From: an uncultured Burkholderiales bacterium | GTDB lineage: Bacteria; Pseudomonadota; Gammaproteobacteria; Burkholderiales; Burkholderiaceae_C | Direction: 5' to 3' | NCBI GenBank assembly: GCA_937873395.1 | Contig: CALMYH010000006.1 | Coordinates: forward strand, 39,210-103,209 | DNA length: 64,000 nucleotides | Shown: in pieces, positions 1 to 16,663 of the stretch | Position numbering within the stretch: the first letter of the stretch is position 1 | How the letters are laid out: every line of letters starts with the position of its first letter | The notes under the pieces: model-generated | What the model was told of the DNA's origin: nothing | Database searches by the model: none | The model's input: only the letters and a program-made list of their open reading frames with translations | Translations under genes and position numbers: made by a program

Positions 1-1
1 C

Positions 2-1180
2 AACGAAGAAGAGCGGGTCCGGCAGGGCTACGAAATGCAGACCACCCTGCAGTTCGCCGAAGCCGAAGGCAAGCTGAATATGGTGACGACCGTGGTCGAG
101 GACGACACAGGCCCGTTGCTCGAGCTTCAGTACGGCCAGTCAGCCACTGTCTGGCGGATGAACTTCGGCTGGCGGCGCCGCAAGGAAAAGGCCATCCAGG
201 GCTTCATGATGAACCCAGTCACCGGCCATTGGGTCGGTGGCGTGGACGACGGCAATGGCGAATCTGAGAGCGAAGGCGATGCTCCACCGGACAAGACCCC
301 GCCTCAGCGCATCGTTCCGTACGTCGAAGACCGTCGGAACATACTCATTGTTCGGCCCCACCACAGGCTCGGCGTGCTAGAAGCGGAGACGCTGACGACA
401 CTCCAGTACGCCCTGAAGCGCGGCATTGAAGCGGTATACCAGCTCGAAGAAAGCGAGCTGATGGCCGAGCCGCTGCCCACGCGCGACAACCGCCAGTCCA
501 TCCTTCTCTTCGAAGCGGCAGAGGGTGGCGCAGGCGTGCTCACCCGCTTGGCCACCGAGCCCGACGCACTGGCTGCCGTGGCTGCCAAGGCGCTTGAGGT
601 GATGCACTTCAAGGCACCACCTGCGGGTCAAGCGTGGAAGCGAGACAGTTTGGTCGAAGAACTGGACCACAACGGCGAGCCATATTGCGAGGCGGGTTGC
701 TACCGCTGCCTGCTCTCGTACTACAACCAGCCTGACCACTCGCTGATCGACCGCAAAGACAAGGCAGCTGGCGGACTGTTGCTGGACATGCTCTGCCGGC
801 TGACCGAGGCCCGGACAAACCAAGGTACCCAAGGTCGCGCTCCGCAAGAGCACGACGCCCAACTGGCTCGCACGGCGGGCAGCACGCTTGAGCAAGCATG
901 GCTCGACCATGTGGCCGAGCACGGCTATCGCAAGCCCGACCGTGGCCAGCACACCATCGCTGGGGCGAGTGCCTGTGCAGACTTCTTTTACGACGAGCTG
1001 AATCTGGCCGTCTTCATTGATGGTCCGCACCACGAGACCGACACCCAGCGGGCGCAAGACGCGGTCATGGACCGCAAGCTCGATGAGTTGGGCTACCTCG
1101 TGGTCCGTTTCCCCAAGGAACAGTCGAGCTGGCCAAGCATCTTTGCTGCCAATGCCGACCTCTTTGGGGCCGGTCGATGA
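2..1180 (+). CDS. DUF1998 helicase-type protein with C-terminal nuclease-like domain (5' partial)
   Basis: The reading frame is open at the left window edge, so this is the C-terminal 392 residues of a larger protein. It carries the DUF1998/MZB region found at the end of SF2 helicases and in the DISARM protein DrmB, including a cysteine cluster (CEAGCYRCLLSYYN, near base 690) that probably binds zinc. The last ~100 residues resemble a DUF559/Vsr-type PD-(D/E)XK fold, with FIDGPHH followed by DRKLDELGYLVVRFP. This is family knowledge applied by eye. The helicase motor, if present, lies upstream of the window. The stop overlaps the next start by four bases (ATGA). Probable role: DNA-handling component of the defence operon that runs to 15839. 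It could be a DrmA/DrmB-like fusion or a free-standing DUF1998 protein; the missing 5' half would decide. Confidence 0.75.
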   Translation, partial: NEEERVRQGYEMQTTLQFAEAEGKLNMVTTVVEDDTGPLLELQYGQSATVWRMNFGWRRRKEKAIQGFMMNPVTGHWVGGVDDGNGESESEGDAPPDKTPPQRIVPYVEDRRNILIVRPHHRLGVLEAETLTTLQYALKRGIEAVYQLEESELMAEPLPTRDNRQSILLFEAAEGGAGVLTRLATEPDALAAVAAKALEVMHFKAPPAGQAWKRDSLVEELDHNGEPYCEAGCYRCLLSYYNQPDHSLIDRKDKAAGGLLLDMLCRLTEARTNQGTQGRAPQEHDAQLARTAGSTLEQAWLDHVAEHGYRKPDRGQHTIAGASACADFFYDELNLAVFIDGPHHETDTQRAQDAVMDRKLDELGYLVVRFPKEQSSWPSIFAANADLFGAGR

Positions 1181-2040
1181 GCAAGGCGCAGTCGGACCTC
1201 TTCGAAGAGCTCTCGACGTCTAGCCTCAAGCGGCTTCGCACTTTTGCGGAGTGCGCAGCTGCTGTCGACCGCCTCTTCAAGGATGCGCTGGAGTCGCAAG
1301 GCGCCACGGCGTTCACCGAGTTCATCGATTACGCCCGCCGACTCAGCAACCTTTCCGTCTACAACGCGATGTTGGTTCGGTTGCAGCGTCCGGGCGCTGC
1401 AGCGGTCGCGACCGAGAAGCGTTGGAATGCTGTGGGTAGAACGGTCCGGGCTGGCGCGATTCCCATCGTCGTTCTGCGACCGTTTGGACCCGTGTCGTTC
1501 CTCTACGAAGTTGGTGACACCGAGGGCAAGCCCCTGCCTGGCGAGCATGCCAACCCTTTCGTCGCGCACGGGGATTTGGACGAAGTGGAATGGGCGCGCG
1601 TCCTGAAGCTCCATCGCGAGAAGAACAACGTTCGCATTGAAGAGCGCAACTTCGGCGCTCTGCTGGCCGGCAATGCCCGAAATCTGCAGGCCATGCCAGC
1701 ACTGCTTCCCGAGCTCAGCAAGCCTGAGTGGCTCATTCAGCTCAACGTCAACCACAGCATTCCAACCCGCTTCGCGACCTTGGCCCACGAGTTGGGCCAC
1801 ATCTTCTGCGGCCACTGCGGCCCCCACAACCGGGGCGCTTGGCCAGACCGCTCAAAGCTACCCCATGCTGTGCGGGAAACAGAGGCCGAGGCGGTCGCCT
1901 ACCTCGTCTGCGCGCGACGCGAACTCCAGGTGGCCTCGCAGGAGTACTTGAGCGAACTCATCGCGGACGTGGACCTTCGGCAGGTCAGCCTTTACGCCAT
2001 CTTCGAAGCGGCCAATCGCATCGAAGGGAAATCACAGTAA
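1177..2040 (+). CDS. ArdC-N-like / ImmA-IrrE-type zinc metallopeptidase
   Basis: This 287-residue protein has two parts. Residues ~40-110 resemble the ArdC N-terminal (ssDNA-binding, antirestriction) domain, with the pattern LSVYNAMLVRLQRP, then W-N-A-V-G-R-T-V-R-A-G-A-I-P-I. Residues ~195-285 form a zincin domain with the motif HELGH (204-208) and a downstream ETEAEA segment that could supply the third zinc ligand. A cysteine/histidine-rich stretch (CGHCGPH) follows the active site. The start overlaps the previous stop (ATGA), and the next gene begins three bases after the stop, so it is an integral operon member. ArdC proteins are known on plasmids as antirestriction factors and ImmA/IrrE proteases as repressor-cleaving regulators. 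Which role applies here is inference: it could regulate the operon, protect DNA or act as an effector. Confidence 0.75.
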   Translation: MSKAQSDLFEELSTSSLKRLRTFAECAAAVDRLFKDALESQGATAFTEFIDYARRLSNLSVYNAMLVRLQRPGAAAVATEKRWNAVGRTVRAGAIPIVVLRPFGPVSFLYEVGDTEGKPLPGEHANPFVAHGDLDEVEWARVLKLHREKNNVRIEERNFGALLAGNARNLQAMPALLPELSKPEWLIQLNVNHSIPTRFATLAHELGHIFCGHCGPHNRGAWPDRSKLPHAVRETEAEAVAYLVCARRELQVASQEYLSELIADVDLRQVSLYAIFEAANRIEGKSQ

Positions 2041-2043
2041 TTT

Positions 2044-4893
2044 ATGCAAGTAGCCTTCAACCCAGGAAGTTTGGTCTCTGCCCGCGGCCGCGAGTGGATA
2101 GTCCTGCCGGAATCTGACCAGCAGACGCTTCGCCTTCGCCCCTTGGGTGGCGGTGAGCGCGACGAGACGCTCGTCTATCTTCCCCTCGAGCGTCAGCCCG
2201 TCCAGCCCGCCACCTTCCCCTGGCCGACCGTTGAGCAGGCCCGCAACCACTCGGCCAGCCAGATGCTGCTGGATGCGCTGCAGCTCAAGCTGCGCAGTGG
2301 CGCGGGCCCGTTCCGCAGCTTCGGCAACATCGCTGTCGAGCCCCGTGCCTACCAGCTCGTCCCGTTGCTGATGGCACTGAAGCTGCCGACGGTCCGACTG
2401 CTGATTGCCGATGACGTCGGTATCGGCAAGACCATCGAGGGCTCCCTGATTGCGCGCGAGATGCTCGACCGCGGTGAAGTCCAACGCCTCACCGTGCTGT
2501 GCCCGCCCCACTTGTGTGAGCAATGGCAGCGCGAGCTGGCCAGCCGCTTCCATATCCCTGCGGTCGTCGTTCGCTCCAACACCGCAGACCGGCTGGAGCG
2601 TGACCTCCCGCCGGGTGCGTCGCTGTTCGATGCCCACCCGTTCACCGTCGTCAGCCTGGACTACATCAAGTCCGAGCGCCGGCGCGAGGCCTTCCAGCGC
2701 TTTTGCCCGGAGTTCGTCATCGTTGACGAGGCGCATACCTGCACCCAAGCGGGCCAAGGTCGGCAACAACGCTACCAGCTGCTCAAAGGCCTGGCCGCGC
2801 AGCCTGACCGCCACCTGGTGCTGCTGACCGCCACCCCACACAGCGGGGACGAAGAAGCCTTCTTCAACCTGCTGGGCCTCCTGCGCACGGACTTCACCCA
2901 GCTCAAGGACCTGCCTCCGGGCCAGCGCAGCGACCTGCGCGAGGCCTTGTCTCGCCACTTTGTTCAGCGTCGCCGCCCAGACATTGCCGAATGGCAGGAC
3001 ACCTCGATGTTTCCGGAGCGCAAGTCGGCGGAGGTGACCTACCGCCTCACCGGCGCGTGGGGCCAGTTGTTCAACGACGTGCTGGCCTACGCCCGCGAAC
3101 TGGTCGAACGCTCTGAGGGCCAGGGCCTTCGCGAGCAGCGCATGAACTGGTGGGCTGCGTTGGCGCTGCTGCGCTGCATCTCGTCGTCCCACGCCGCGGC
3201 AGTCAACGCGCTTCGCACGCGCCTGCAAGGTGCCCAAGGGGAAGCCGGTACAGCCGAGGCCGCGTCCCTGGAAGAGTTCGAAGCACAAGCCAGCGACCGG
3301 GTGCTGGACGGCACTGAAGACGCCTTGTCGACCGACGATATCGAGCCCGGTGCGCAGACTGAGGACAGCCTGCGGCTGCAGGAGCTGATGGCCAGCGCCA
3401 ACGCCTTGGCCGGCCAGCAGAACGACCCCAAGCTCGCCAAGCTCCAGGAGCACTTGGCCATCCTGCTCAAAGACGGCTTCCAGCCGGTGGTCTTCTGTCG
3501 CTACATCGCCACCGCACACTACCTCGCGGCGGCGTTACAGGAGAAGTTCAAGTCGGCCACGGTCAAGGCGGTCACCGGCGAACTCACGCCGGATGAACGC
3601 GAGGCGGCCGTTGAGCAGTTGGGCGACAGCGACGTGCGCATCCTGGTCGCCACGGATTGCCTCTCCGAAGGTATCAACCTGCAGGGGCTGTTCACCGCGG
3701 TCGTGCACTACGACCTCAGTTGGAATCCGACGCGTCATGAGCAGCGGGAGGGACGTGTGGACCGTTTTGGCCAGAAGGCTCGTGAGGTCCGGAGCACCAT
3801 GCTCTACGGCGAGGACAACCCTGTGGACGGCGCCGTGCTGCAGGTCATCCTGCGCAAGGCCGAGAGCATCCGCAAGGAGTTGGGTGTGCTCGTGCCCATG
3901 CCCGACGACGAGGGCAAGCTCACCCAGGCCCTGATGAACGCAGTGCTGCTGCGCAAGGGCACGCCGCTGAACGCGCAATCGCAGCTCGACCTCTTCGGCG
4001 AGCCGGCCAAGGAGATTGACCTGGCCTGGCAAAGCGCCAAGGAGAAGGCCAAGCAGAACCGCAGCATCTTTGCCCAGCGCCGCCTGAAGCCCGAAGATGT
4101 GCTGCCCGAGTGGCGCAAGTCCGCGGCCGTGTTGGGCGGTGAAGCCGACGTGGAGCGATTCGTCAGTCGGGCGGCCAGCCAGCTGGGTGCGCCGCTGCAG
4201 CCGGTCAAGCAGCACTTCAAGATGCTTACCGAACATCTGCCGGGCACGGTCCAAGAACGCTTGGCGGCCGAGGGCCTGTCGGGCACTCTGCGCATCGACT
4301 TCCACCAGCCCGCCGCGCAGGGCGCCACCTTCGTCCACCGCACGCACCCCCTGGTGGCCGTGCTGGCAGACACGCTGCTGGAGCAGGCGCTGGACGCCAC
4401 ACCGTCCGGTGACGACGCTGCTGCCGTGGCCCGAGCCGGCACCGCTTTTGTGAGTGCCGTGAGCCTGAAGACCACCGTACTGCTGTTGCGCATTCGCCAC
4501 CAGCTCACGGTCACCCACGGCACCTCCACCCGCCTGCTCATGTGCGAGGAAGCCGTAGCGGTGGCCGCAACCGGCTCTAACCCGTTCGCCGAACTCTCCC
4601 CCGAGCAAACCCGCCAGTTGCTCGGCGCCGAAGCCACCCGCAACATGCCCGCTCCGCTGCGCGACCGCCAACTCCAATCCGCACTGGATGCGTTGCCGGG
4701 CTGGCAGCCTCAGTTTGAAGCTATCGCTAAGGCGCGCGCCCAGGCACTGCTGCAAGACCACCGCCGTGTGCGTGAAGCAGCCGAGGGCCGCGGCAGCTAC
4801 CAGGTCACCGCCAGTCTGCCGGTGGACGTGATGGGCCTCTACGTGCTGCTCCCCGATACAGGCGCTGCGGCCAGCAACGCTATGGGAGCCTGA
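2044..4893 (+). CDS. drmD: SNF2-family helicase, DISARM DrmD-like
   Basis: A 949-residue superfamily 2 ATPase. Visible motifs are Walker A GIGKT (126-130), the DEAH box (228-231), TATPHSGD (motif III region, ~262) and motif VI HEQREGRVDRFGQ (~565-577). This motif set and length match the SNF2/RapA-like helicases called DrmD in class 1 DISARM, where it stands directly before the adenine methyltransferase DrmMI, as here. The last ~250 residues lack recognisable helicase motifs. The start is the first ATG after the preceding TAA (three bases), with only a weak AAGGG purine stretch some 16 bases upstream, suggesting translational coupling. The stop is four bases before the methyltransferase. The helicase assignment is firm. 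The DISARM name rests on gene order and size, and the symbol is provisional. Confidence 0.85.
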   Translation: MQVAFNPGSLVSARGREWIVLPESDQQTLRLRPLGGGERDETLVYLPLERQPVQPATFPWPTVEQARNHSASQMLLDALQLKLRSGAGPFRSFGNIAVEPRAYQLVPLLMALKLPTVRLLIADDVGIGKTIEGSLIAREMLDRGEVQRLTVLCPPHLCEQWQRELASRFHIPAVVVRSNTADRLERDLPPGASLFDAHPFTVVSLDYIKSERRREAFQRFCPEFVIVDEAHTCTQAGQGRQQRYQLLKGLAAQPDRHLVLLTATPHSGDEEAFFNLLGLLRTDFTQLKDLPPGQRSDLREALSRHFVQRRRPDIAEWQDTSMFPERKSAEVTYRLTGAWGQLFNDVLAYARELVERSEGQGLREQRMNWWAALALLRCISSSHAAAVNALRTRLQGAQGEAGTAEAASLEEFEAQASDRVLDGTEDALSTDDIEPGAQTEDSLRLQELMASANALAGQQNDPKLAKLQEHLAILLKDGFQPVVFCRYIATAHYLAAALQEKFKSATVKAVTGELTPDEREAAVEQLGDSDVRILVATDCLSEGINLQGLFTAVVHYDLSWNPTRHEQREGRVDRFGQKAREVRSTMLYGEDNPVDGAVLQVILRKAESIRKELGVLVPMPDDEGKLTQALMNAVLLRKGTPLNAQSQLDLFGEPAKEIDLAWQSAKEKAKQNRSIFAQRRLKPEDVLPEWRKSAAVLGGEADVERFVSRAASQLGAPLQPVKQHFKMLTEHLPGTVQERLAAEGLSGTLRIDFHQPAAQGATFVHRTHPLVAVLADTLLEQALDATPSGDDAAAVARAGTAFVSAVSLKTTVLLLRIRHQLTVTHGTSTRLLMCEEAVAVAATGSNPFAELSPEQTRQLLGAEATRNMPAPLRDRQLQSALDALPGWQPQFEAIAKARAQALLQDHRRVREAAEGRGSYQVTASLPVDVMGLYVLLPDTGAAASNAMGA

Positions 4894-4897
4894 CACC

Positions 4898-7800
4898 ATG
4901 GCCAAACGACTCACCCACCAGCTGGCCTACCGAGCCATCCGCATCGAAGGCGGTCTCATCCCCGCCGAAGAGCTCACGCGCCTGACCCTGCTGGCCGACC
5001 CCAAGGCCACTGAGCAGACCGAAGGCCACTACCGCATCGCCAAGGGCCTGAAGCTGCGCGACGAGATTGCGCGCGACTTCAAGATTGCCCTCAACCTCTG
5101 GCAGGACTTCAAAGCCCTGCGCCAGCGGCAAGACGTGCGGACCCATGAAGTCACCGTGCGCGAGTGGCTGCTGCCACTGCTGCGTGACGTGCTGCACTTT
5201 CACGACGCCGCCCGCTGCGCGGCCATCGAAAAGGCCGGCCACCAGTACGCGGTGGGTCATGCTGGCAACGGCGGCCGCGTGCCACTGGTGTTCGCTGGCT
5301 TTGACGAACCGCTGGATGCCGCTGCCGAGCGCTTCGGCGAGACCAACCCCGACACGGGCAAGACTCGCCGCCGCAGTCCCTTCATGCTGGCGCAGGAGGC
5401 GCTGAATGCCAGCGACGCCTCGCTCTGGGCCGTCGTCAGCAACGGGCTGACCCTGCGCATCCTGCGCGACAACGCCAGCCTCACCCGCCCGGCCTACATC
5501 GAGGTGGACCTCGAGGCGCTCTTCAACGAAGAGCTGCTGGCCGACTTCAGCGCGTTCTGGCTGCTAGCCCACGCCAGCCGCTTCGGGACCGCCGAGACGC
5601 AACCCAGCGACTGCCCTTGGGAGCGCTGGCGAGCGGCTGGCCAGCAGACTGGCGTCACGGTGCGCGGCAAGCTGCGCTATCAGGTGGCCGAGGCGCTTCG
5701 CGCGCTGGGCACAGGCTTCCTCTCGCACCCAGCCAACGGGGCGCTGCGCACGGCGCTGCAGACCGCGGAGGGTGGCTACGACCGGCAGGCATTCTTCGAA
5801 GAGCTGCTTAGGCTGGTGTACCGGCTCATCTTCCTGGCCACCGTGGAAGACCGCCGTGACCGTGGCACCGGCGAGCGCCTAGTGTTCACGCCGGAGGCCA
5901 CTGACGATGCCAAGGCACGCTACCTGGCCGGCTACTCGATGACCTGGCTGCGGGAGCGGGCTGTGCGGCGCAGCCAGCACGACCGCCATGCGGACCTCTG
6001 GCAGGCGCTGACCATCACCTTCGGCGCGCTGTCCCGCGGTGAACCCGCATTGGGCTTGCCTGCGCTGGGCGGCTTGTTCGAAATCGACCAATGCCCGCGG
6101 CTGGACGCGGCCCAGCTGAACAACCGCCACCTCCTCGCCGCCGTGTTCCAGCTCGGCTGGTTCCGCGCCGACGGTGGGCTGTCGCGCGTCAACTACCGCG
6201 ACATGGGCCCCGAGGAACTCGGCAGCGTCTACGAGAGCCTGCTGGAGCTGGTGCCTGACCTGCAGGGTCTGGCATCGCCCGTCACGGCACGCTTGGCCTT
6301 TGTCGGCGACGACGAGACCGATGCCTCCACCAAGGGCAACACCCGCAAGCTCACGGGAAGCTACTACACCCCCGACAGCCTGGTGCAGGAGCTCATCAAG
6401 AGCGCCCTGGAGCCCGTCATCGCGCAGACAGTCAAGGCGAGTCCGGAGCGCCCTGTAGAGGCACTGTTGTCGCTCACCATCTGCGACCCCGCGTGCGGCA
6501 GCGGCCATTTCCTGCTGTCCGCCGCCCGCCGCTTGGCTGACGAGGTGGCGCTGCACCGCGCCGCAGCAGAACGCGAGGGCGGCGCCCCCACGCCCGCTGA
6601 CTACCGCCACGCGCTGCGCGACGTGGTCAGCCGCTGCATCTATGGGGTGGACAAGAACCCCATGGCCATCCAGCTGGCCAAGACGGCCCTGTGGCTGGAG
6701 GCCTACTCACCGGACCGGCCGCTGAGCTTCGTGGACCACCACCTGCGCGTGGGCGATGCATTGCTGGGCGTGCTGTACCCCAAGGTCCTGGAGCACGGCA
6801 TCCCGGACGAGGCCTACACGGCCCTTTCGGGTGACGACAAGGAAGTCGCCAAGGCGCTGAAGAAGCAGAACAAGGCCGACCTGAAGAGCTGGAGGCAGAT
6901 TGCCGGTGGCGACCTGCTCACCCAGGCGGGCCTAGCCGCGCAGGCGGTCAGCGTGGACACGCTGGACGACAACACGCCCGAGCACTTGGCCGCCAAGCGC
7001 CAGGCCTGGTTGCAAGCCGAAGCCGAAGCACAGCGGAGCACCTTTGCCCGCCTGGCCGACACCTACGTGGCCGCCTTTTTGGCGCCCAAGCTGGCCGATG
7101 CGGGCGACACCGTCCCCCTGTCCGGCTACCTCTGGGGCGTGCTCAGTGGGCAGACGCCGAAGGTGGAGGTGGAAGACGCTGCCCAGAGCCTGTGCCACCA
7201 GCACAGCGTTTTTCATTGGTGGTTGGCGTTCCCACAGGTGGCGGCGAAAGGTGGCTTTAGCGTGATGCTGGGAAACCCGCCGTGGGAGCAGTTGCAGCTC
7301 AATGAGGAAGAGTTCTTTGCAACTCGAGCGCCCTCGATAGCGGCACTTGCAGGAAACACCCGAAAGCAGGCTATTGCTGCGCTCGAGACCAACCTACCGT
7401 GGTTGTGGGAGGCATTCAACGCCGCCAAGCGCCAAATGGAAGCTGCGAACCAGTTCCTTCGTGGCGGCGGTCGCTTCCCGCTCAGTGCGAGGGGAAAGCT
7501 CGACACCTATCCCCTGTTCTCAGAGACCTTTCTTCAGGCCACGGCCCAAAGCGGCAGGGCCGGCTTCATCGTCAAAGCAGGCATCGCTACTGACGATTCA
7601 AACAAGTTTTTCTTCTCACATCTCGTTGATACATCGAGGCTTGTTTCGCTAATTGGCTTCGACAACGCTGAACGCATCTTCCCGGCTGTTCATCCCGATA
7701 CGCCGTTCGTTCTCGTGACGTTGGGGGCGACAACTGAGCCCTCTCGGTTGCTCAACTATGCGCTGCGGATTGAGCATCTCAGCGACGCTCGCAGGGAGTT

Positions 7801-9337
7801 CCGCCTCACCGCAGACGAGTTCGCTCTCATCAATCCCAACACTCGCACGTGCCCGGTCTTCCGCAGCGAGCGCGATGCGGAGCTCACCAAGAAGCTCTAC
7901 CGTGCCGCGCCCGTGCTCATCGCCGAAGGCGAGACGGATGGCGACGGCAGGGCAATTCGCGCTGAGGTCAATCCGTGGGGCATCTCGTTCTCGCAAGGTC
8001 TGTTCAACATGACCAGCGACAGCGGTCTGTTCGCCGATACACCGGCTACAGCAGGGCAGCCACATCGCCTGCCCCTGTACGAAGCCAAGATGATTCACCA
8101 GTTCGACCACCGCTGGGCCACCTACGTGGACGCCGCCAGCGGCACGGCGGGTGAGGTAGAAACCGTCGACGTCAGCGATGCGCAAAAGGCTGAACCAGCT
8201 TGCACTGTGCGACCGCGCTACTGGGTAGATGAGCGCGAAGTACTGGCTCGCGTCGCCCGTGTGCCATCGCGTGTGGCACGCGCCTGGCTGGCGCTGCACG
8301 CCGCGCGGGAGGCAGGCGACGCAACCGCTCAGGACACCGCACTGGCCGACCTCCAACTGGCACTGGCGCAGTGGGTGGCTGGCGAGTTGTTCCATGCAGC
8401 GGCCGGTCCAATCCCCTCCGCCGAGGGCTGGACCGCACAGCAAGCCCAGCGCCACATCGCACCGGTCGAACAACAGCTTCGGGCCCGATTCCCTCGCCTG
8501 GACACGGCGCTGCGCGGCGAAGGCCTGACCACCAAGAAGGCCCTGGCAGACTTCCCCAAGTGGGCCACGCAGAACCGCGACGCCCGCTTGGACGACGCCG
8601 AACTCGCGGCGCTTGCCGAGACACTGCGTGTCAGCGCTCTGGCCGAAGCGCTGCGTTCGCTGCTCGACGGCTGGATGGACGGGCGCAGCCCGAGTTGGTT
8701 AATGGGGTGGCGGGACATTACCAACGCCACTAACGAACGCACGGTGATTGCGTCGGTGGCTCCAAGAGCCGGCGTTGGCAACAACATGCCGCTGATGCTC
8801 TTTGGCTCAGCGGTATCGACGGGCCCACTCGCGGCACTTCTTGGCAACCTGTGTTCGTTGGTCTTCGACTTTGTCGCGCGGCACAAGGTAGGTGGCACCC
8901 ACCTCAACTACTTCATCTATAAGCAGCTTCCGGTTCTATCGCCCGAGCGCTACACGGAAGTCGACTTGGCCTTCATCGTTCCCCGCGTCCTCGAGCTCAC
9001 CTACACCGCTCACGACCTTCAGGCCTGGGGTCAGGACCTCGCCGCCTATGACCCGCGCCCCACGGCCGAGCAGGGTCGCCCTTTCGCCTGGATACCCGAG
9101 CGCCGCGCCTTGTTGCGCGCCGAACTCGACGCCTACTACGCCCGCCTCTACGGTCTCACCCGCGACGAGCTGCGGTACATCCTCGACCCCAAGGATGTGA
9201 TGGGTGAGGACTACCCCAGCGAGACCTTCCGCGTGCTGAAGGAAGGTGAGATGCGCGCTTATGGCGAGTACCGAACGAGAAGGCTCGTGCTGCAGGCGTG
9301 GGATGAACTGCATCGTCCAGGGCCTAGGACCGCATGA
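4898..9337 (+). CDS. drmMI: Large N6-adenine DNA methyltransferase, DISARM DrmMI-like
   Basis: A 1479-residue protein of the Eco57I/type IIG-like adenine methyltransferase group. The AdoMet-binding motif I reads CDPACGSGHF (529-538) and the catalytic motif IV is NPPW (793-796). The spacing between them (~255 residues) is large and holds an inserted segment. The N-terminal ~500 residues and the C-terminal ~600 presumably give target recognition and DNA binding; no PD-(D/E)XK motif was noticed. In DISARM the equivalent enzyme marks host DNA so that the helicase complex does not attack it. It sits four bases after the SNF2 helicase, and its stop overlaps the HamA start (ATGA), tying a DISARM-like pair to a Hachiman pair. 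A type IIG restriction-modification enzyme is the alternative, less likely given its neighbours. Confidence 0.85.
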   Translation: MAKRLTHQLAYRAIRIEGGLIPAEELTRLTLLADPKATEQTEGHYRIAKGLKLRDEIARDFKIALNLWQDFKALRQRQDVRTHEVTVREWLLPLLRDVLHFHDAARCAAIEKAGHQYAVGHAGNGGRVPLVFAGFDEPLDAAAERFGETNPDTGKTRRRSPFMLAQEALNASDASLWAVVSNGLTLRILRDNASLTRPAYIEVDLEALFNEELLADFSAFWLLAHASRFGTAETQPSDCPWERWRAAGQQTGVTVRGKLRYQVAEALRALGTGFLSHPANGALRTALQTAEGGYDRQAFFEELLRLVYRLIFLATVEDRRDRGTGERLVFTPEATDDAKARYLAGYSMTWLRERAVRRSQHDRHADLWQALTITFGALSRGEPALGLPALGGLFEIDQCPRLDAAQLNNRHLLAAVFQLGWFRADGGLSRVNYRDMGPEELGSVYESLLELVPDLQGLASPVTARLAFVGDDETDASTKGNTRKLTGSYYTPDSLVQELIKSALEPVIAQTVKASPERPVEALLSLTICDPACGSGHFLLSAARRLADEVALHRAAAEREGGAPTPADYRHALRDVVSRCIYGVDKNPMAIQLAKTALWLEAYSPDRPLSFVDHHLRVGDALLGVLYPKVLEHGIPDEAYTALSGDDKEVAKALKKQNKADLKSWRQIAGGDLLTQAGLAAQAVSVDTLDDNTPEHLAAKRQAWLQAEAEAQRSTFARLADTYVAAFLAPKLADAGDTVPLSGYLWGVLSGQTPKVEVEDAAQSLCHQHSVFHWWLAFPQVAAKGGFSVMLGNPPWEQLQLNEEEFFATRAPSIAALAGNTRKQAIAALETNLPWLWEAFNAAKRQMEAANQFLRGGGRFPLSARGKLDTYPLFSETFLQATAQSGRAGFIVKAGIATDDSNKFFFSHLVDTSRLVSLIGFDNAERIFPAVHPDTPFVLVTLGATTEPSRLLNYALRIEHLSDARREFRLTADEFALINPNTRTCPVFRSERDAELTKKLYRAAPVLIAEGETDGDGRAIRAEVNPWGISFSQGLFNMTSDSGLFADTPATAGQPHRLPLYEAKMIHQFDHRWATYVDAASGTAGEVETVDVSDAQKAEPACTVRPRYWVDEREVLARVARVPSRVARAWLALHAAREAGDATAQDTALADLQLALAQWVAGELFHAAAGPIPSAEGWTAQQAQRHIAPVEQQLRARFPRLDTALRGEGLTTKKALADFPKWATQNRDARLDDAELAALAETLRVSALAEALRSLLDGWMDGRSPSWLMGWRDITNATNERTVIASVAPRAGVGNNMPLMLFGSAVSTGPLAALLGNLCSLVFDFVARHKVGGTHLNYFIYKQLPVLSPERYTEVDLAFIVPRVLELTYTAHDLQAWGQDLAAYDPRPTAEQGRPFAWIPERRALLRAELDAYYARLYGLTRDELRYILDPKDVMGEDYPSETFRVLKEGEMRAYGEYRTRRLVLQAWDELHRPGPRTA

Positions 9338-10197
9338 CCGCCACGGCAGCTGCCAAGGCCACTAGCGCCAAGTCGGGCGCGCCTGCTGCGCAACCGACCT
9401 ACCTGCGCCATCTGAAGCCAGTCGATGAACTCACGCTCGCTGCAGGCGAAAGGTGTCAGGTCTGGGAGCTTGAGGTACCCAAGGACGATGCATGCCTCAG
9501 CGAATGGGCCTTTAGGTTCCGCCAGTGTTACTGCCCGGATAGTCAGCTCGACCTACTTCGCGAGGGCACCGGAAAGACCAGAGCCCAGTACCTGCTTGAG
9601 CTCGTGTTTCCAGACCAAGCTAAAGCGCCCGGGCCTGGGGTTCGGTCTGGCGACTTTGCAGAGCTACTGATAGCTGACTTCGTCGAGTTCCTGCTCGGCT
9701 ACTGGGTCCCCCGTGACAAGTACGCCGAGAAGGGAAGTCGCAACGAGTCCGTCAAGGGGGTAGATATCGTCGGATTCAAGTCGCGGCACGAGGACCAGCA
9801 TCATCCCGACGACGAGATGCTCACCTTCGAAGTGAAGGCACAGCTGCGGGGAGGCAAGTACGACGAGCGCCTGCAGGTAGCGGTCGATGACTCCGCGAAG
9901 GACTATCTGCGAGCCGGTGAGACCTTGGCTGCCATGAAGCGGAGGTTTCTGAACAGTGGCGACCAAAGAGCCATGAAGGTCGTGCAGCGCTTTCAGAACG
10001 CAGCCGACCGGCCATACGTCCTCTTATCTGGCGCTGCAGCGGTCTTGTCTGACGAAGCGTTCGATGCGGCTGGGCTTTCTGCAACCTCTACCGCGAAGCA
10101 CAACAACGCGAAGGGATTGCAGCTGGTAGTCATCAAAGGGGAGGGTTTGATGGGCCTTGCCCATGCGCTTTATCAGAGAGCTGCCGATGAGGCCTGA
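9334..10197 (+). CDS. hamA: Hachiman nuclease HamA (DUF1837)
   Basis: A 287-residue protein matching the DUF1837 family that forms the nuclease half of Hachiman. A PD-(D/E)XK-like active site can be read: an acidic residue in a helix (E110), KGVDIVGF with D144, and FEVKAQ with E166 and K168. The first ~20 residues are Ala/Thr-rich and probably disordered. In characterised Hachiman systems HamA is held inactive by the helicase HamB and degrades DNA once HamB meets damaged or invading DNA. The start overlaps the methyltransferase stop by four bases, and the 3' end overlaps hamB by 11 bases, so HamA and HamB should be made together. The catalytic residues look intact. Family assignment is by motif and gene pairing, not by search. 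Confidence 0.85.
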   Translation: MTATAAAKATSAKSGAPAAQPTYLRHLKPVDELTLAAGERCQVWELEVPKDDACLSEWAFRFRQCYCPDSQLDLLREGTGKTRAQYLLELVFPDQAKAPGPGVRSGDFAELLIADFVEFLLGYWVPRDKYAEKGSRNESVKGVDIVGFKSRHEDQHHPDDEMLTFEVKAQLRGGKYDERLQVAVDDSAKDYLRAGETLAAMKRRFLNSGDQRAMKVVQRFQNAADRPYVLLSGAAAVLSDEAFDAAGLSATSTAKHNNAKGLQLVVIKGEGLMGLAHALYQRAADEA

Positions 10198-13100
10198 AGC
10201 AAACAGTCGGCGCTACCTGGGCATCACTCGCTCAAAGGGCAAGATGTACGAATTGGGGCTGCCTGAGGAGTCCCACATCGCCGTTCCCCAAGATGTTGAG
10301 CCCGAGGCATTGTTTCCCCTGTCCATCGGCACGTTGATGGATGCGTCCGTCGGCTTGAACGACGCCGCAGAGGACCCACCAACCATCTCGGACGAGCTGC
10401 GCGCTGAGCTGGGGTTCGCAGCCAGCTTCTTTGACGCCTACCTGGAGTCGCGCTTCAACACCGGCGTATCGCACGAGGTCAGTCTGTTCGCCTCCGCGAG
10501 CTACTTCCTCGGCCAACGGCCAGGGAGCAGCCTGGTTCTCGCTCGGCGCCTCGAGCTGGAGGGATTGAACGCCATTGAGCAAGCAGCCATCTGGGCCCTT
10601 CGCGCAGAGTGGCACAGGGCACCGGACCTCGCTGCTCATCCGAGTGGCGGCTTGGTTCCAGGTTTGGTTCAGGGGCTGAGAGCGCACTTCATGGACGGTG
10701 CCAGCTCCGATAACGCCGTGGCACTGCTATCCGCGCTGCGCGCCTGGGCCTACTCCAACGGAACTGCCAGAGAAGTCGTGCTGGCAGAGGTTGCGGCGGC
10801 GGTGGTGAAGCTGCGGTTGGCGAGTTCGTCATGGAAGTTGCTCCCCGACTTCAGCGGGTTGACAAGCGAAGCCTGGGCTAGCGCCATCCGGCGCCCTGGA
10901 TTTCCCAAGGAGCTTTGGCCGTCCCAACGGCTTCTCGGAAAAGCGCAGATATTCGCAGGTCGCTCGGGAGTCGTGCAAATGCCGACCAGCGCAGGCAAGA
11001 CGCGTTCGGTCGAGGTCATTCTTCGAAGCGCATTCCTCGCGGACCGAACCAGGGTCGCGGTTCTTGTCGCGCCATTCCGGGCCCTATGCCATGAGATTGC
11101 GACTTCATTCCGTCAGTCCTTCCGGAATGAGGACGTCAAGGTCAACGAGCTGTCGGACGCACTGCAACTCGACTTCGCAGACCAGCTTGCTGAGCTGTTC
11201 GGCGCTGCGCCGCCGAGTACACGCTATCTCCTCGTGCTGACCCCGGAGAAGCTGCTCTATGTTCTGCGCCAGGCGCCCGCGCTGGCTACGCATCTAGGCC
11301 TTGTGGTGTACGACGAGGGTCACCAGTTCGACTCGGGTAAGCGTGGCATCACGTATGAGCTGCTGCTGGCGGAAATCAAGAGCCAAGTTTCGGCTAACGC
11401 ACAGACAGTTCTCATCTCAGCTGTCATCAAGAACGCGACGGCAGTCGGTGCATGGCTCATCGGCGCGGACCCGAATGTGGTCAACGGGACAGGACTGCTC
11501 GCCACAGCGCGCTCAGTTGCCTTCGCCACCTGGAGCGAGGCTCTGGGCCAGCTTTGGTTCTTCGAGTCAGGCAACTATGAGAAGCGGGACTACTTCGTCC
11601 CTCGCACCATTGAAGCTCAGGAGCTAAATCTCTTCGGCAAGGAGCGGAAGCGTCAATTCTTTCCAGGGCGGGGAGATACCGCTTGGAGGGATGTTTCGTT
11701 GTATCTGGGCATACGTTTAGCCCCCAGCGGCACCGTCGCAATCTTCTGCGGGCGGAAGGACACTGCGTCCGGCCTCGCAGCACGCGCTGTCGACGTGTAC
11801 GCAAGAGGGTTCTCTCTGACGCCGCCATCCCAAGCCTCCAATCCGGCTGAGGTCCAGCGGCTCTTTCACTTGGCTTCCCAGCACTTGGGAGCCGACTCGG
11901 TGCTGGCCAAGGCAGCAGCACTGGGCGTGTTTGTCCACCACGGGACGACGCCGCAGGGGATACGTCTTTCGGTCGAGCATGCGATGCAGCAGGAGCTCAT
12001 CAAGCTCGTTATCTGCACATCAACCTTGGCTCAAGGCGTCAACCTGCCGATTCGCTATTTGGTGGTGTCTGGAGTGAACCAAGGCGCCGACCGAATCAAG
12101 ACACGTGACTTCCAGAACCTCATCGGCAGAGCGGGTCGCGCAGGCATGCACACAGAGGGCCTAGTCATTTTTGCGGACCCGCGAGTCATGGACAAGAAAC
12201 GGCAGGAGCGCTGGCGTCTTGATGCCGCCATTGAACTGCTGACGCCTGAGAACGCAGAGGACACCTCCAGCTCGCTCTTGACGCTCGTATCCCCGCTCCG
12301 CACTGCTGACGAGCGAGGGGAACTGCCGGTTACCCAGGCTGATTTGACGCGGGCCTACTTCCTGCGGAGGGACGCGCTGCGTGAGTGGGCGAAGGGTGTC
12401 CTTCAGGCGACTCCGATGCAAGGAGAAAGTGAACGGACGCTGGTGCGCCAGATTTCCAAGCGGCAGTCCTTCCTGGTCGCCCTGGAGAGCTATCTGATGG
12501 CCAACCGTGGCACCGATGCCTTCGACGAGTTTCTGACAAGGGCACGGAGCCTGGCGGAGTCAACCCTGGCCTTCGCTCTGGGCAATGAGGCTCAGAAGCA
12601 AGAGTTGCTTCAGCTTTTCGACCTGACCGCAAGGCACGTTGAAGCGATAGCACCAGCTCAATCGCAACAGGCGACGTTCGCCAAGACGCTACTTGGGGCG
12701 GCGGACGCAGCCGCTGTGGAGCGATGGGTTTTGCAGAACGAAGTGTCAGTTGCAGGGCTCACCGAACCTCGTGACTGGCTCGTCGCGCTTTGGCCGCTGT
12801 TGATTGCAGTTGCCAATAGCAAGCTTCTGCCGGTCATGGAGCCAGATGGCCTTGCTCTCGAGCTCGCCAAGCGCTGGATGGACGGGTCGACCTACGGTGA
12901 CCTCATCGCATATGGGAATGCTAGTGGCGGCACTAAGCCCAGGGGCGAGGATGGCAGGCAGCGCCTCTCGGATGCAGACGTTTTGGGGTTCCTGGAGGGC
13001 GACCTGGGTTATGACTGCCCATTGGTCATCGCGGCCGTCGGAGAGTTCGTGGCGGAGCTGCCTTCGGTCGACGGTGCGTGCCGCGACAGGTTGAACGCAT

Positions 13101-13324
13101 TCCAGAAGTGCCTCAAGTACGGGTTACCTGATGCCCTGAGCATCTCAATCTACGAAGCTGGATTCGCAGACCGTTGCATCGCTCAGGAACTGGCTGCTGA
13201 GCTGAGGGCTGCAGGGTACGAGGGAACGCACGTCGCCTTGGCTTTGGCGAATCACCGAGACGTCTTCGTTGCCGTCTTGACGCGATATCCCAGCTACTTT
13301 GAAACCGTTCTCGACGGACTCTGA
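10187..13324 (+). CDS. hamB: Hachiman helicase HamB
   Basis: A Ski2-like SF2 helicase of 1045 residues. Numbered from the chosen start, motif I is MPTSAGKT (265-272), motif II is DEGH (376-379) and motif VI is GRAGRAG (647-653). The DEGH variant in place of DEAH, the ~250-residue N-terminal extension and the long C-terminal region fit HamB. The ATG at 10187 is preferred over an upstream in-frame TTG at 10157, because an AGAG sequence precedes the ATG by six bases and the overlap with hamA shrinks to 11 bases. HamB is expected to scan DNA and release the HamA nuclease. The next gene starts 20 bases after the stop. Confidence 0.87.
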   Translation: MRPEANSRRYLGITRSKGKMYELGLPEESHIAVPQDVEPEALFPLSIGTLMDASVGLNDAAEDPPTISDELRAELGFAASFFDAYLESRFNTGVSHEVSLFASASYFLGQRPGSSLVLARRLELEGLNAIEQAAIWALRAEWHRAPDLAAHPSGGLVPGLVQGLRAHFMDGASSDNAVALLSALRAWAYSNGTAREVVLAEVAAAVVKLRLASSSWKLLPDFSGLTSEAWASAIRRPGFPKELWPSQRLLGKAQIFAGRSGVVQMPTSAGKTRSVEVILRSAFLADRTRVAVLVAPFRALCHEIATSFRQSFRNEDVKVNELSDALQLDFADQLAELFGAAPPSTRYLLVLTPEKLLYVLRQAPALATHLGLVVYDEGHQFDSGKRGITYELLLAEIKSQVSANAQTVLISAVIKNATAVGAWLIGADPNVVNGTGLLATARSVAFATWSEALGQLWFFESGNYEKRDYFVPRTIEAQELNLFGKERKRQFFPGRGDTAWRDVSLYLGIRLAPSGTVAIFCGRKDTASGLAARAVDVYARGFSLTPPSQASNPAEVQRLFHLASQHLGADSVLAKAAALGVFVHHGTTPQGIRLSVEHAMQQELIKLVICTSTLAQGVNLPIRYLVVSGVNQGADRIKTRDFQNLIGRAGRAGMHTEGLVIFADPRVMDKKRQERWRLDAAIELLTPENAEDTSSSLLTLVSPLRTADERGELPVTQADLTRAYFLRRDALREWAKGVLQATPMQGESERTLVRQISKRQSFLVALESYLMANRGTDAFDEFLTRARSLAESTLAFALGNEAQKQELLQLFDLTARHVEAIAPAQSQQATFAKTLLGAADAAAVERWVLQNEVSVAGLTEPRDWLVALWPLLIAVANSKLLPVMEPDGLALELAKRWMDGSTYGDLIAYGNASGGTKPRGEDGRQRLSDADVLGFLEGDLGYDCPLVIAAVGEFVAELPSVDGACRDRLNAFQKCLKYGLPDALSISIYEAGFADRCIAQELAAELRAAGYEGTHVALALANHRDVFVAVLTRYPSYFETVLDGL

Positions 13325-13344
13325 CAGATACATGATGGATTGAC

Positions 13345-15105
13345 ATGAGCGAAACACTCTTCAAGGAAGTCCGCTACACCCTGGGTGGCCTGGTCAACGG
13401 CATCAGCATGGGCCAGATTGGCCTGCCGGATATCCAGCGGCCGTTCGTCTGGAGCAACGCGAAGGTCCGCGACCTGTTCGACTCGATGTACCGCGGCTAC
13501 CCGGTGGGCTTCTTCCTGTTCTGGGAGACCGGCGCCGATGGCGTCGAGACCAAGGTCATCGGCGACACCAACAAGCAAAAGACGCCTTCTTTGCTCATCG
13601 TCGACGGGCAGCAGCGGCTGACCTCGTTGTACGCGGTTATCCGGCGTGAGGCCGTGCTGCGGGAGAACTTTGAGCGCGAGCACATCCGTATCGCGTTTCG
13701 GCCGCAGAACGGCACGTTCGCGGTGCCCGATGCGACCACCGAGCGCGACCCGGAGTACATCCTCGACGTCTCGCAGGTGTTCCGGACGGATACGTTTGAG
13801 TTCGTCTCCGACTACCTTGAGCGGCTGCGCTCTCATCGCGAAGTGGGCAAGGACGAAGAGCGCCTCATCGCCAAGGCCATCGGCCGCTTGGCAAAGCTCA
13901 CCGACTATCCCTTCATCGCGCTGGAACTGTCGCAGCAGTGCACCGAAGAACAGGTGGCCGACGTCTTCGTCCGCATCAACAGCGAGGGCAAGAAGCTCAA
14001 CCAGTCGGATTTCATCCTGACCCTCATGTCCGTGTTTTGGGACGAGGGCCGTACCGAGTTGGAGACCTTTTGCCGCGCGGCTCGGCAGCCCGGGCCGGCG
14101 GGGCAGGCAAGTCCGTTCAATGCCATCTTCCAGCCCGACCCGGACCACCTGCTGCGGGTGGATGTGGGCGTGGCGTTCCGCCGTGCGCGGCTGGAGCATG
14201 TGTACTCGCTGCTGCGGGGTAAAGACCTGTCCACCGGTGAGTCCAGTCCGGGGAAGCGGGCCAACCAGTTCGGCAAGCTGCGCGATGCTCAGGCCAGAGT
14301 ACTGAACCTGACCAACTGGGCAGACTTCCTGAACGTGGTGCGTGCCGCGGGCTACCGCAGCGCCAAGCACATCAGCTCGGTGAACGCGCTCGTGTTCGCC
14401 TACCAGCTCTATCTGCTGGGACGCACCGAGTACGGCGTGGAGGGCTTCAAGCTCAAGAACGCCATCGCCCGCTGGCTGTTCATGTCGTTGCTGACGGGGC
14501 GTTTCACGTCGTCGCCGGAATCGCGCATGGAGCAGGACCTGGCCGAGCTGCGGGAGATGACCTCAGCCGACCAGTTCCTGGTACGGCTGGCCACGGTCGA
14601 GTCCGCCACGCTGACGGACGATTACTGGACCAAGACCCTCCCGCTGGACCTGGCCACCTCCGCCGGGCGAAGCCCCGCGCTGTTCGGCTTCTATGCGGCG
14701 CAGACGCTGTTGGATGCCCGGGCACTGTTCTCGTCCATGAAGGTCGTCGACCTGCTGGACCCGCCAGCACAGGGGCAGAAGAAACCGCTGGAGCGGCACC
14801 ACCTGTTCCCCCGCCAGTACCTCAAGGGCAAGGGCGTGGAGAGCGTGCGGGATATCAACCAGATTGCGAACTACACGCTGGTTGAGTGGGACGACAACAT
14901 CGCCATCTCGGACGCGCCGCCAGCCGAGTACTGGCCCAAGTACGCCGAACGGTTTGACGCCGACACCCTGGCCACCATGATGCGCTGGCATGCCTTGCCG
15001 CAGGACTGGTGGACGCTGAGCTACGACGACTTCCTGGTGGCACGGCGCCCGTTGATTGCCGACGTCATCCGGCAGGGCTATGTGAAGCTGACCCGAGGCG
15101 TCTGA
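13345..15105 (+). CDS. GmrSD-like DUF262 / HNH (DUF1524-type) protein
   Basis: A 586-residue single-chain protein with a DUF262 N-terminal domain (ParB/sulfiredoxin-like fold; DGQQR at 87-91, LPDIQRPFVW near residue 30) and a C-terminal HNH region with HH at 485-486 (RHHLFPRQYL) followed by N-Q-I-A-N-Y-T-L. This is the layout of GmrSD-type type IV restriction enzymes, in which DUF262 hydrolyses nucleotides and DUF1524 cuts modified DNA. It starts 20 bases after hamB, and its stop overlaps the next start (TGATG). It may extend the operon's reach to phages with modified bases, which is inference. DUF262 proteins also occur inside other defence systems, so it could be a subunit rather than an independent restriction enzyme. 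Confidence 0.8.
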   Translation: MSETLFKEVRYTLGGLVNGISMGQIGLPDIQRPFVWSNAKVRDLFDSMYRGYPVGFFLFWETGADGVETKVIGDTNKQKTPSLLIVDGQQRLTSLYAVIRREAVLRENFEREHIRIAFRPQNGTFAVPDATTERDPEYILDVSQVFRTDTFEFVSDYLERLRSHREVGKDEERLIAKAIGRLAKLTDYPFIALELSQQCTEEQVADVFVRINSEGKKLNQSDFILTLMSVFWDEGRTELETFCRAARQPGPAGQASPFNAIFQPDPDHLLRVDVGVAFRRARLEHVYSLLRGKDLSTGESSPGKRANQFGKLRDAQARVLNLTNWADFLNVVRAAGYRSAKHISSVNALVFAYQLYLLGRTEYGVEGFKLKNAIARWLFMSLLTGRFTSSPESRMEQDLAELREMTSADQFLVRLATVESATLTDDYWTKTLPLDLATSAGRSPALFGFYAAQTLLDARALFSSMKVVDLLDPPAQGQKKPLERHHLFPRQYLKGKGVESVRDINQIANYTLVEWDDNIAISDAPPAEYWPKYAERFDADTLATMMRWHALPQDWWTLSYDDFLVARRPLIADVIRQGYVKLTRGV

Positions 15106-15839
15106 TGACCCCGCTGGACCGCCTGCGACTGGAGAAGGCCGCCGCCGACTGCGGCTTCGAGATGACGGCGGTCCCGTATCAGGACGGGCTGGAGCTGCGG
15201 TCCGCCCGCTTCCCGGAGACGGTGCTCGTGCGTGTGGCTGGGGAGAAGAGCTTTGAAGTCATGGCGTCGGACCCGGCCATCTTGGACCAGAAAGCAGGCA
15301 GCGCTTCCCTGAATGTTGAGGGCTACGGTGAGCTTTACGCCTTGCTGCGCACGACCGCCGCCCATGCCCGAACCAAGCCAAACCGGGTGGCCGACGAGTT
15401 CAAGAAGAAGACGGCGGCCATGCCGAAGACCACGGAGGCCGAGCGGCTGGTCGTCCAGCGCGTGGGGCAAGGCCTGTTCCGTGGCGCGCTGCTGGACTAC
15501 TGGCAGGGGAAGTGCTGCGTGACCGGTCTGGATGTACCAGAGCTACTGCGGGCCTCGCACATCCGCCCCTGGGCCCAGTGCGAGACCGACGAGCAGCGCT
15601 TGGACGTGTTCAACGGGCTGCTGCTGGCGCCGCATCTGGACGCGCTGTTTGACGCAGGCCTGATGACCTTCGACACGGCGGGAGTTGCAGAGCTTTCCCC
15701 AAAAATTACTGCCGAACGCCGCGCTGCGATGGGCCTGGACGGCAAGATGAAAATATCTGACCTACGCTCAGGTCACCACACATATCTTGAGTTCCACAGA
15801 AAGCAAGTTTGGGGCAACCCACCATTGATCCAGGCTTAG
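15105..15839 (+). CDS. HNH endonuclease (HNH_2 type)
   Basis: A 244-residue protein whose C-terminal half is an HNH_2-type nuclease: CCVTGLDVPELLRASHI, then PW, then RLDVFNGLLLAPHLDALFD. The invariant His in ASHI, the Asn in NGLLL and the following His are present. The N-terminal ~100 residues have no recognisable domain. The ATG is chosen because it overlaps the stop of the DUF262 gene (TGATG), though an in-frame ATG lies 96 bases upstream inside that gene. It is the last gene of the plus-strand defence operon; the next gene converges from the other strand 37 bases later, with no clear hairpin between. HNH_2 proteins are common partners or tail genes in restriction and defence loci. The exact substrate is unknown. 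Confidence 0.75.
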   Translation: MTPLDRLRLEKAAADCGFEMTAVPYQDGLELRSARFPETVLVRVAGEKSFEVMASDPAILDQKAGSASLNVEGYGELYALLRTTAAHARTKPNRVADEFKKKTAAMPKTTEAERLVVQRVGQGLFRGALLDYWQGKCCVTGLDVPELLRASHIRPWAQCETDEQRLDVFNGLLLAPHLDALFDAGLMTFDTAGVAELSPKITAERRAAMGLDGKMKISDLRSGHHTYLEFHRKQVWGNPPLIQA

Positions 15840-15876
15840 GACTTCGACCTGTTCATCACTCCTGGTACACAGAAAA

Positions 15877-16662
15877 TCAAAGGGCCGCGGTATGGATCAA
15901 CTCCTGCTCGCAGGTCCCGCACCGCAGAGCCAATCCGCTGGCGGCCCAGGCTTTGATGCCACAACCCGAGCAGACATACTTCACGCGGTCTGACTCCTTC
16001 CTCGGCGGTGGCGCCACCGTCACCGGTTGGCCATCTGCCAGCGGCTCGATCACATCCACAGGCGGTGGAGAAACCTCCAGGGTGATGCCGGCGCCCTTCA
16101 ATGCCTCCTGCCTCTCCTGAAAACCCGCCTCCTGCGTTCGGGGCAGATGCCGGTCTACCCAGGGCAGCTGAAATCCGTCCGCCACCAGCTCTTTGCAGGC
16201 CTGCAGGAAAGGACCGGCCGGCTGGATGTAGTGGCTGACGGTCTGCCCGGTGTCCTTTCCGTTCGGCAGACCGGTGCTGGAGGGCACCAGGCCGACTTCG
16301 AGCATCTTCCTGGCCCACTCCCGGTTGTGCGGATTCGAGCGGGACGGATGGCCGAAGCAGTCCTGCCAGTGGTGGACCATCTCGTGCACCAGGGTGGACA
16401 GTACTTCTTCGACCGGCCTGACCGTGAAGTACCCGGCATGAAGGCCCAGCTCGTTGAGCGTCTGGCCCTGTCGGTTCACAAAGCGGTCTTTGTGGTGGTA
16501 GCCGTAGGCCCTGCCGGACGACCTCAGGGTGATCAGGCAAGGCGGAAGCTGGCCTGCGAACAGGGCCTGGTTGAAGTGGTCGAAGGCCCGCTGCAGCTGG
16601 CCATAGAAAGCCACCGTCGGACTGGCACTGGCCTGGACTTCTGCATGGGTTTCAGGTGGCAA
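15877..16662 (-). CDS. SprT-like zinc metalloprotein
   Basis: About 261 residues. The central part matches the SprT-like family: HEMVHHW gives the HExxH zinc site, and before it comes a region with AYGYHHKDRF and LNELGLHAGYF. The C-terminal tail ends in a treble-clef-like zinc ribbon (CSGCG ... CGTCE). SprT-like domains in eukaryotic Spartan cleave DNA-protein crosslinks; bacterial members are poorly characterised. No ATG start fits. A TTG at 16662 with GGAG seven bases upstream is the best candidate, one base after the stop of the VIT/VWA gene; an in-frame TTG at 16698 is the alternative. The tight junction means it is co-transcribed with the VWA protein. Function in this island is unknown. 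Confidence 0.7.
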   Translation of the reverse strand: MPPETHAEVQASASPTVAFYGQLQRAFDHFNQALFAGQLPPCLITLRSSGRAYGYHHKDRFVNRQGQTLNELGLHAGYFTVRPVEEVLSTLVHEMVHHWQDCFGHPSRSNPHNREWARKMLEVGLVPSSTGLPNGKDTGQTVSHYIQPAGPFLQACKELVADGFQLPWVDRHLPRTQEAGFQERQEALKGAGITLEVSPPPVDVIEPLADGQPVTVAPPPRKESDRVKYVCSGCGIKAWAASGLALRCGTCEQELIHTAAL

Positions 16663-16663
16663 T

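Follow-up and report, generated by a model that had tools for sequence, protein, structure and literature searches.

According to the main text of the ARMADA preprint, type I operons have the general order YprA-BrxHII-PglX, their YprA protein carries a predicted active Vsr-type nuclease tail and a BrxA-like domain after RecA1 is a criterion of the type; the experiments were made on type II, which acts directly and does not kill the cell (Bell et al. 2025, bioRxiv 2025.09.15.676423, PMC12458937). In the same main text the terms Hachiman, DUF262 and ArdC do not occur, HNH occurs only in the title of a reference, and neither an HNH partner nor Hachiman nor an exchange slot was found (PMC12458937).

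The locus described here lies in the window, as the whole analysed stretch of 64,000 bases is called, and is very probably an ARMADA type I operon with an HNH gene, in which modules are swapped between the methyltransferase and HNH genes, here a Hachiman pair together with a GmrSD gene. It is a known core with a known module in an exchange slot for which no published account was found in the open-licence literature; in that literature, supplements aside, no account was found either of an ARMADA operon containing Hachiman or Mokosh, of the HNH partner or of the methyltransferase extension.

Gene content of the operon

Eight ORFs, all on the plus strand, were tightly packed at positions 1-15839 of the window, no overlap or gap exceeding 20 bases, at or near the positions given in the preliminary description. 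The first, truncated by the window edge (1-1180), encodes the C-terminal part of an ArmC-type YprA/DruE-like helicase with an MZB (DUF1998) zinc domain and a DUF559 nuclease-like tail (PADLOC, Pfam). It overlaps by 4 bases an accessory gene for an M78/IrrE-type zincin (1177-2040) with HExxH present, the Peptidase_M78 score of which (22.7 bits) was barely over the cut-off of 22; among close relatives, L072 and L076 had an M78 gene at the equivalent place. A BrxHII-like, ArmA-type SNF2/RapA helicase gene (2044-4893) follows after 3 bases, and after another 4 bases the gene of an ArmB-type, PglX/DrmMI-like N6-adenine DNA methyltransferase with DPACGSGH and NPPW motifs (4898-9337). The methyltransferase gene overlaps by 4 bases (ATGA) the gene for HamA, the DUF1837 nuclease of Hachiman (9334-10197; 332.6 bits over 267/271 model positions), which in turn overlaps by 11 bases that of the Hachiman helicase HamB (10187-13324; 1223.8 bits; E 3e-44 with the solved HamB 8vx9_B). 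After 20 bases comes an accessory, type IV restriction-like GmrSD/DUF262 gene (13345-15105; GmrSD_N 112.7 bits; E 1.1e-10 with the solved DUF262 protein 7p9k), and the last gene, overlapping it by 1 base, encodes an HNH_2 nuclease (15105-15839; 53.8 bits). The start codons used were ATG 10187 for HamB, in place of the listed TTG 10157, and ATG 15105 for HNH, in place of the listed GTG 15009.

The arrangement by which Hachiman is recognised, a HamA (DUF1837 nuclease) gene beside a HamB helicase gene, was found in the operon. The sequence of the solved HamA structure matched the window HamA weakly (E 0.2); judging by the profile scores, HamAB is a genuine Hachiman pair, and the earlier claim of two defence modules joined in one tight operon was upheld. 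Upstream of the operon, a WYL regulator and a NERD-UvrD helicase were observed (L002:7799-10695), so that the region resembles a wider defence island.

Identity of the core

Gene 1 starts 4150 bases before the window on the same contig. The entire gene (L002:13060-18390), of 1776 aa counted from the first start codon, matched the Pfam families DEAD, Helicase_C, MZB and DUF559, and its best PADLOC model was DruE (303 bits). We take MZB to be the former DUF1998. The C-terminal DUF559 match was weak (24.3 bits for the part and 22.0 for the whole gene, cut-off 20.6), and DUF559 is presumably akin to Vsr nucleases. Because gene 1 continues upstream of the window, it encodes a full helicase and not a lone DUF1998 protein; of the DUF1998 protein with nuclease-like tail first described, the zinc domain and, by the weak match, the tail were retained. 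By its domain content, the product is an intact YprA/DruE-like helicase carrying its own zinc (MZB/DUF1998) part.

The SNF2 protein matched the DpdE model over its full length with 707 bits, the best DrmD model with 302 bits and BrxHII with 200 bits, while the methyltransferase matched DrmMI with 204 bits. The drmD-drmMI pair of the preliminary description holds as homology, but the SNF2 protein fits DpdE far better. The order YprA helicase, BrxHII-like helicase and PglX-like methyltransferase was present, with the M78 gene between both helicases. In a tree of 23 YprA-type rows, in which the operon types of the reference rows were taken from annotation and the published ARMADA type I reference was left out, gene 1 fell within a 17-row clade (97/99) separate from the three ARMADA II rows and the two Druantia III rows (one of the two partial). 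The deepest splits of this tree join long branches and no root was inferred; its DISARM row, for which layout was the sole criterion, sits on a very long branch. No PLD family (DrmC) was found in genes 1-8 or in the ten upstream ORFs of each of two scans, in agreement with what had been noted before, no separate DrmA and DrmB genes were found in the operon (ORFs, HMM and upstream stretch), and no DruH, DruM, DruF or DruG was found among the proteins scanned by HMM. Gene order, the putative C-terminal nuclease-like domain and the tree point to ARMADA type I as the probable core. On this assignment HamAB replaces nothing, the ARMADA type I core being complete without drmA-drmB.

Related loci

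The window methyltransferase was the query for relatives. In the order sample it found matches at E 0.001, mostly weak, in 60 of 300 genomes; the regions of 20 were examined and ten were kept. G152 (taken as the same as L103) and G288 (partial) were left out, as were G016, G241, G088, G100, G049, G277, G150 and G027, which were judged to be non-ARMADA I or fragments. Plasmid records gave 375 matches, 60 of them over at least 80%, and six were inspected and used. A scan of species genomes gave at least 464 relatives, of which the best 80, the most similar ones, were used. With the window, the set comprised 97 loci; without L146, in which no methyltransferase was called, 96 remained for the slot count. 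The one other sampled genome of the genus of the window, L068, had a DISARM class 1-like layout instead, in which separate genes take the positions expected for DrmA and DrmB (classified from gene layout rather than HMM scores).

Exchange slot between methyltransferase and HNH

Comparison of related loci delimited an exchange slot from the conserved end of the methyltransferase core to the HNH gene (9302-15105, plus strand). In the 96 loci, which include the best 80 of at least 464 relatives, a same-strand HNH_2 gene was reached after the methyltransferase in 47, while in the other 49 the stretch ended (26), met a minus-strand gene (21) or had a gap (2); HNH in the core is hence a tendency, not a rule. 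The HNH genes counted included odd lengths (L077, 397 aa; L090, 521; L122, 350; G223, 143). The slot was empty, with HNH directly after the methyltransferase when ORFs below 90 aa were ignored, in 15 of the 47 HNH-closed loci and filled in 32, again in a set that includes the best 80 of at least 464. The fillings of these 32 were an SMC-like ATPase of one family (16), an AAA-type ATPase without SMC (five), an HD protein (three), a UvrD-like helicase without SMC (two), M78 alone (two), only uncharacterised proteins (two), Mokosh (one) and Hachiman (one). Cassettes were named by PADLOC/Pfam for a selection of proteins and by BLAST for the remainder; of the HD proteins, that of G175 is a dGTPase (254 bits) and the other two were assigned by BLAST at 27-30% only.

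The window was the only one of the 96 loci (including the best 80 of at least 464, and with 26 stretches ending before HNH) to have HamAB in the slot. In the class sample, a strong methyltransferase match was found in 8 of 369 genomes, that of the window included; in three of the other seven the sequence ended inside the gene, and the remaining four had a different cassette, SMC in one and an AAA-type ATPase in three, two of which were weak matches. Overall, the methyltransferase-HNH gap is a repeatedly reused exchange site inside the operon, and the pairing with Hachiman, seen only once, has by itself no evolutionary support. Between the SNF2 helicase and the methyltransferase, an annotated Phd/VapC toxin-antitoxin pair was seen in Acidithiobacillus caldus (L035:19352-19986) and a Schlafen-type protein in another locus (L046:10252-11679).

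Exchange at close range

Niveibacterium sp. 24ML (L072) was highly similar to the window in DruE (89% identity), M78 (88%), SNF2 (91%), methyltransferase (78%) and GmrSD (83%), and HNH was 61% identical. In the place of HamAB (L072:14449-20179) it had MkoA (762 bits), MkoB (244 bits) and an uncharacterised 237-aa protein. When the window DNA was cut into 150-base tiles, L072 matched 35/35 for DruE, 5/5 for M78, 18/18 for SNF2, 25/27 for the methyltransferase, 11/11 for GmrSD and 2/4 for HNH, with 0/5 for HamA and 0/20 for HamB; the HamA and HamB tiles had no match in any of the nine relatives compared. Mokosh therefore stands for HamAB in Niveibacterium while the flanks match at the DNA level. 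Another relative, L074, had a gene 1 92% identical to that of the window, an SMC cassette and no M78. In the methyltransferase-core tree, the window paired with L074, and L072 (Mokosh) paired with L073, which carries an SMC cassette.

The third-position GC of HamAB was 69-71%, as in a later arrival, against 80-87% for the helicases, methyltransferase and GmrSD, with 79% for HNH and 75% for M78. The total GC of HamAB (60-61%) was near that of a window flank (61.6%), which makes composition a weak sign. At a contig end in L043 (G286), the SMC gene is followed by a 184-aa fragment with 54% identity to MkoA, and by this match Mokosh may stand in the slot a second time.

Hachiman outside the operon

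The window HamA matched 4 of 399 genomes in the order sample and 2 of 398 in the phylum sample, its own genome counted in each. L172 and L175 had HamA-HamB with no methyltransferase in the stretch, the HamA of L172 with 3 internal stops, and L173 and L174 gave weak HamA matches. Four plasmids with HamA and HamB were inspected (E. coli, Blastomonas, Gemmobacter and Cytobacillus), and no match to ARMADA genes was found within about 8 kb of HamAB on them. Both the E. coli copy, in which HamB is annotated in three pieces, and the Gemmobacter copy, in which an IS21 element comes early after HamB, may be broken. In addition, a divergent HamA-HamB (L077:18220-22487; 27-29% identical) was observed in L077, about 170 bases downstream of the HNH gene in a further ARMADA type I operon.

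The halves of the operon are thus largely independent, HamAB being found alone on the four plasmids inspected and in the slot of 1 of 96 loci (including the best 80 of at least 464, and with 26 stretches ending before HNH). The preliminary description had held that such independence would make them only neighbours in an island; this is too weak, since HamAB occupies a slot within the operon that has been reused again and again.

Methyltransferase extension in relatives with an SMC cassette

An extension, defined as at least 150 aa after the conserved RRLVLxAW, was sought in the 73 of 97 loci where the methyltransferase end is intact and followed by 2 kb or more of sequence; the other 24 were dropped. 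In this set, which includes the best 80 of at least 464 relatives, all 22 loci carrying an SMC cassette had it (L083 by manual count), as against 1/51 without SMC (Fisher 9e-18). That one locus, L089, has a Schlafen-like neighbour. For the 30 rows with less than 55% identity, the counts were 7, 1, 0 and 22 (4e-6). In the methyltransferase-core tree, made by a quick method (LG+G4) with the extensions removed, the SMC label needed 18 changes, 15 of them forced by starred branches, against a shuffled mean of 19. For 16 independent pairs differing in extension, the cassette differed in the same direction in 15 and in the opposite direction in none (sign test 6e-5).

The extensions of the 22 loci, which include L073, L074, L077, L079, L080, L082, L120 and L132, were 163-231 aa long. 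Close kin diverge at one residue: the window, L072, G175 and L076 stop within 6-11 aa, and L073, L074, L079 and G286 run on for 167-176 aa past that same residue. Past the conserved RRLVLQAW, the window methyltransferase has only 11 more aa and so is without the SMC-linked extension. One member of the extension resembled LmuC in predicted fold, and two scanned members of the SMC-like cassette gave weak LmuB matches (45-52 bits). The extension with its SMC cassette is the one integration found, in relatives only and not in the window. Its coming and going with the cassette gives a direct, testable sign that a modification system is coupled to a Lamassu-like sensor.

Proposed working and alternative explanations

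Hachiman is a DNA-integrity sensor whose nuclease degrades DNA; experiments on ARMADA type I are not known to us. For an ARMADA type I operon with a Hachiman module, we infer a mechanism of two layers. Carried over from ARMADA type II, the methyltransferase would mark or recognise self DNA, and the helicases with the nuclease tail, together with HNH, would attack unmarked phage DNA directly. In keeping with the working of Hachiman, HamB would sense damaged or abnormal DNA and, should the first layer be overcome, set the HamA nuclease free to act as a second one. The ARMADA layer and the Hachiman back-up would be made from one message, with no physical link indicated. GmrSD and HNH may add nucleases, as proposed for BREX by Rakesh and Krishnan (PMC12839542).

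A wider reading, possible but doubtful, makes ARMADA type I a shared detection platform on which sensing by the core would trigger whichever module is plugged in, Hachiman included. The end of the methyltransferase gene would be a hot junction at which Hachiman, Mokosh, dGTPase and Lamassu-like systems are swapped, and a docking domain on the methyltransferase, sometimes swapped along, would wire the module to the platform.

It is improbable that HamAB landed in the ARMADA operon by chance, at a place that is not selected. The single HamAB case among 96 loci, which include the best 80 of at least 464, and the low third-position GC of HamAB agree with such an event, but in the same set 32 of 47 closed operons are filled by varied modules, and the divergent Hachiman of L077 stands just after an HNH gene.

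Also improbable is a single functional unit, in which HamAB would be recruited, for example, to DNA stalled by the core, and neither half would protect fully alone. The preliminary description had argued for it from the ATGA junction, at which the methyltransferase stop overlaps the HamA start. The operon is indeed packed, and a consensus scan of 1-16700 gave one sigma-70-like site (14954, within gmrSD) against 1.8 expected by chance. Coupling of cassettes is also possible, as the SMC cassette and methyltransferase extension show in 22/22 loci (including the best 80 of at least 464). However, overlapping junctions were also seen with empty slots and other cassettes, and the HamAB relatives stand alone, which leaves the single unit unsupported. 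The 11-aa tail of the window methyltransferase offers no docking extension, HamAB is in the slot of 1/96 loci (including the best 80 of at least 464), and four of the seven further class-sample genomes have another cassette, the other three stretches ending inside the gene.

A DISARM variant with HamA-HamB substituting DrmA-DrmB, as first proposed, can be dismissed in spite of the DrmD (302 bits) and DrmMI (204 bits) matches, as the upstream sequence makes gene 1 a full YprA helicase with a zinc part, the SNF2 protein is far better on DpdE (707 bits), gene order, the putative tail and the tree point to ARMADA type I, the same core has an empty slot in 15 of 47 related operons (a set including the best 80 of at least 464), and the DISARM class 1-like layout of L068, in the same genus, has separate genes at the expected DrmA/DrmB places.

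With the ARMADA type I core constant and complete named systems exchanged at one junction, the loci form a natural series of close pairs. Defence systems are usually counted singly, and such pairs suit testing whether layered defences add up or cooperate.

Comparison with known systems

The operon shares with DISARM class 1 a related SNF2 helicase and methyltransferase, but is without separate DrmA, DrmB and DrmC, and its YprA protein is of the DruE kind. It shares a DruE-like helicase with Druantia but has an SNF2-methyltransferase pair instead of DruH/DruM/DruF/DruG, and stands on a separate tree branch. With Lamassu / ABC-3C, the relatives share a weakly LmuB-like SMC cassette and a methyltransferase extension that is LmuC-like in predicted fold, but the LmuC-like part is fused to the methyltransferase and is absent from the window. 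The auxiliary effectors of BREX are alike in that accessory GmrSD, HNH and OLD-type ATPases occur in a modification-based operon (Rakesh and Krishnan, NAR 2026, PMC12839542), whereas the host system is a different, PglZ-based one, and in the passages covered Hachiman comes up only in connection with kinship among helicases and in a reference (PMC12839542).

As in Hachiman, both genes are full length by PADLOC, with the 11-base overlap annotated in 3/4 stand-alone plasmid copies; unlike them, the window HamAB has no upstream region of its own and overlaps the methyltransferase gene by 4 bases. Finally, the operon is alike to ARMADA type I in its YprA helicase, to which the weak DUF559 match gives a putative C-terminal nuclease-like domain, its BrxHII-like helicase and its PglX-like methyltransferase in the same order, and differs from it by the addition of HNH_2, GmrSD, M78 and HamAB.
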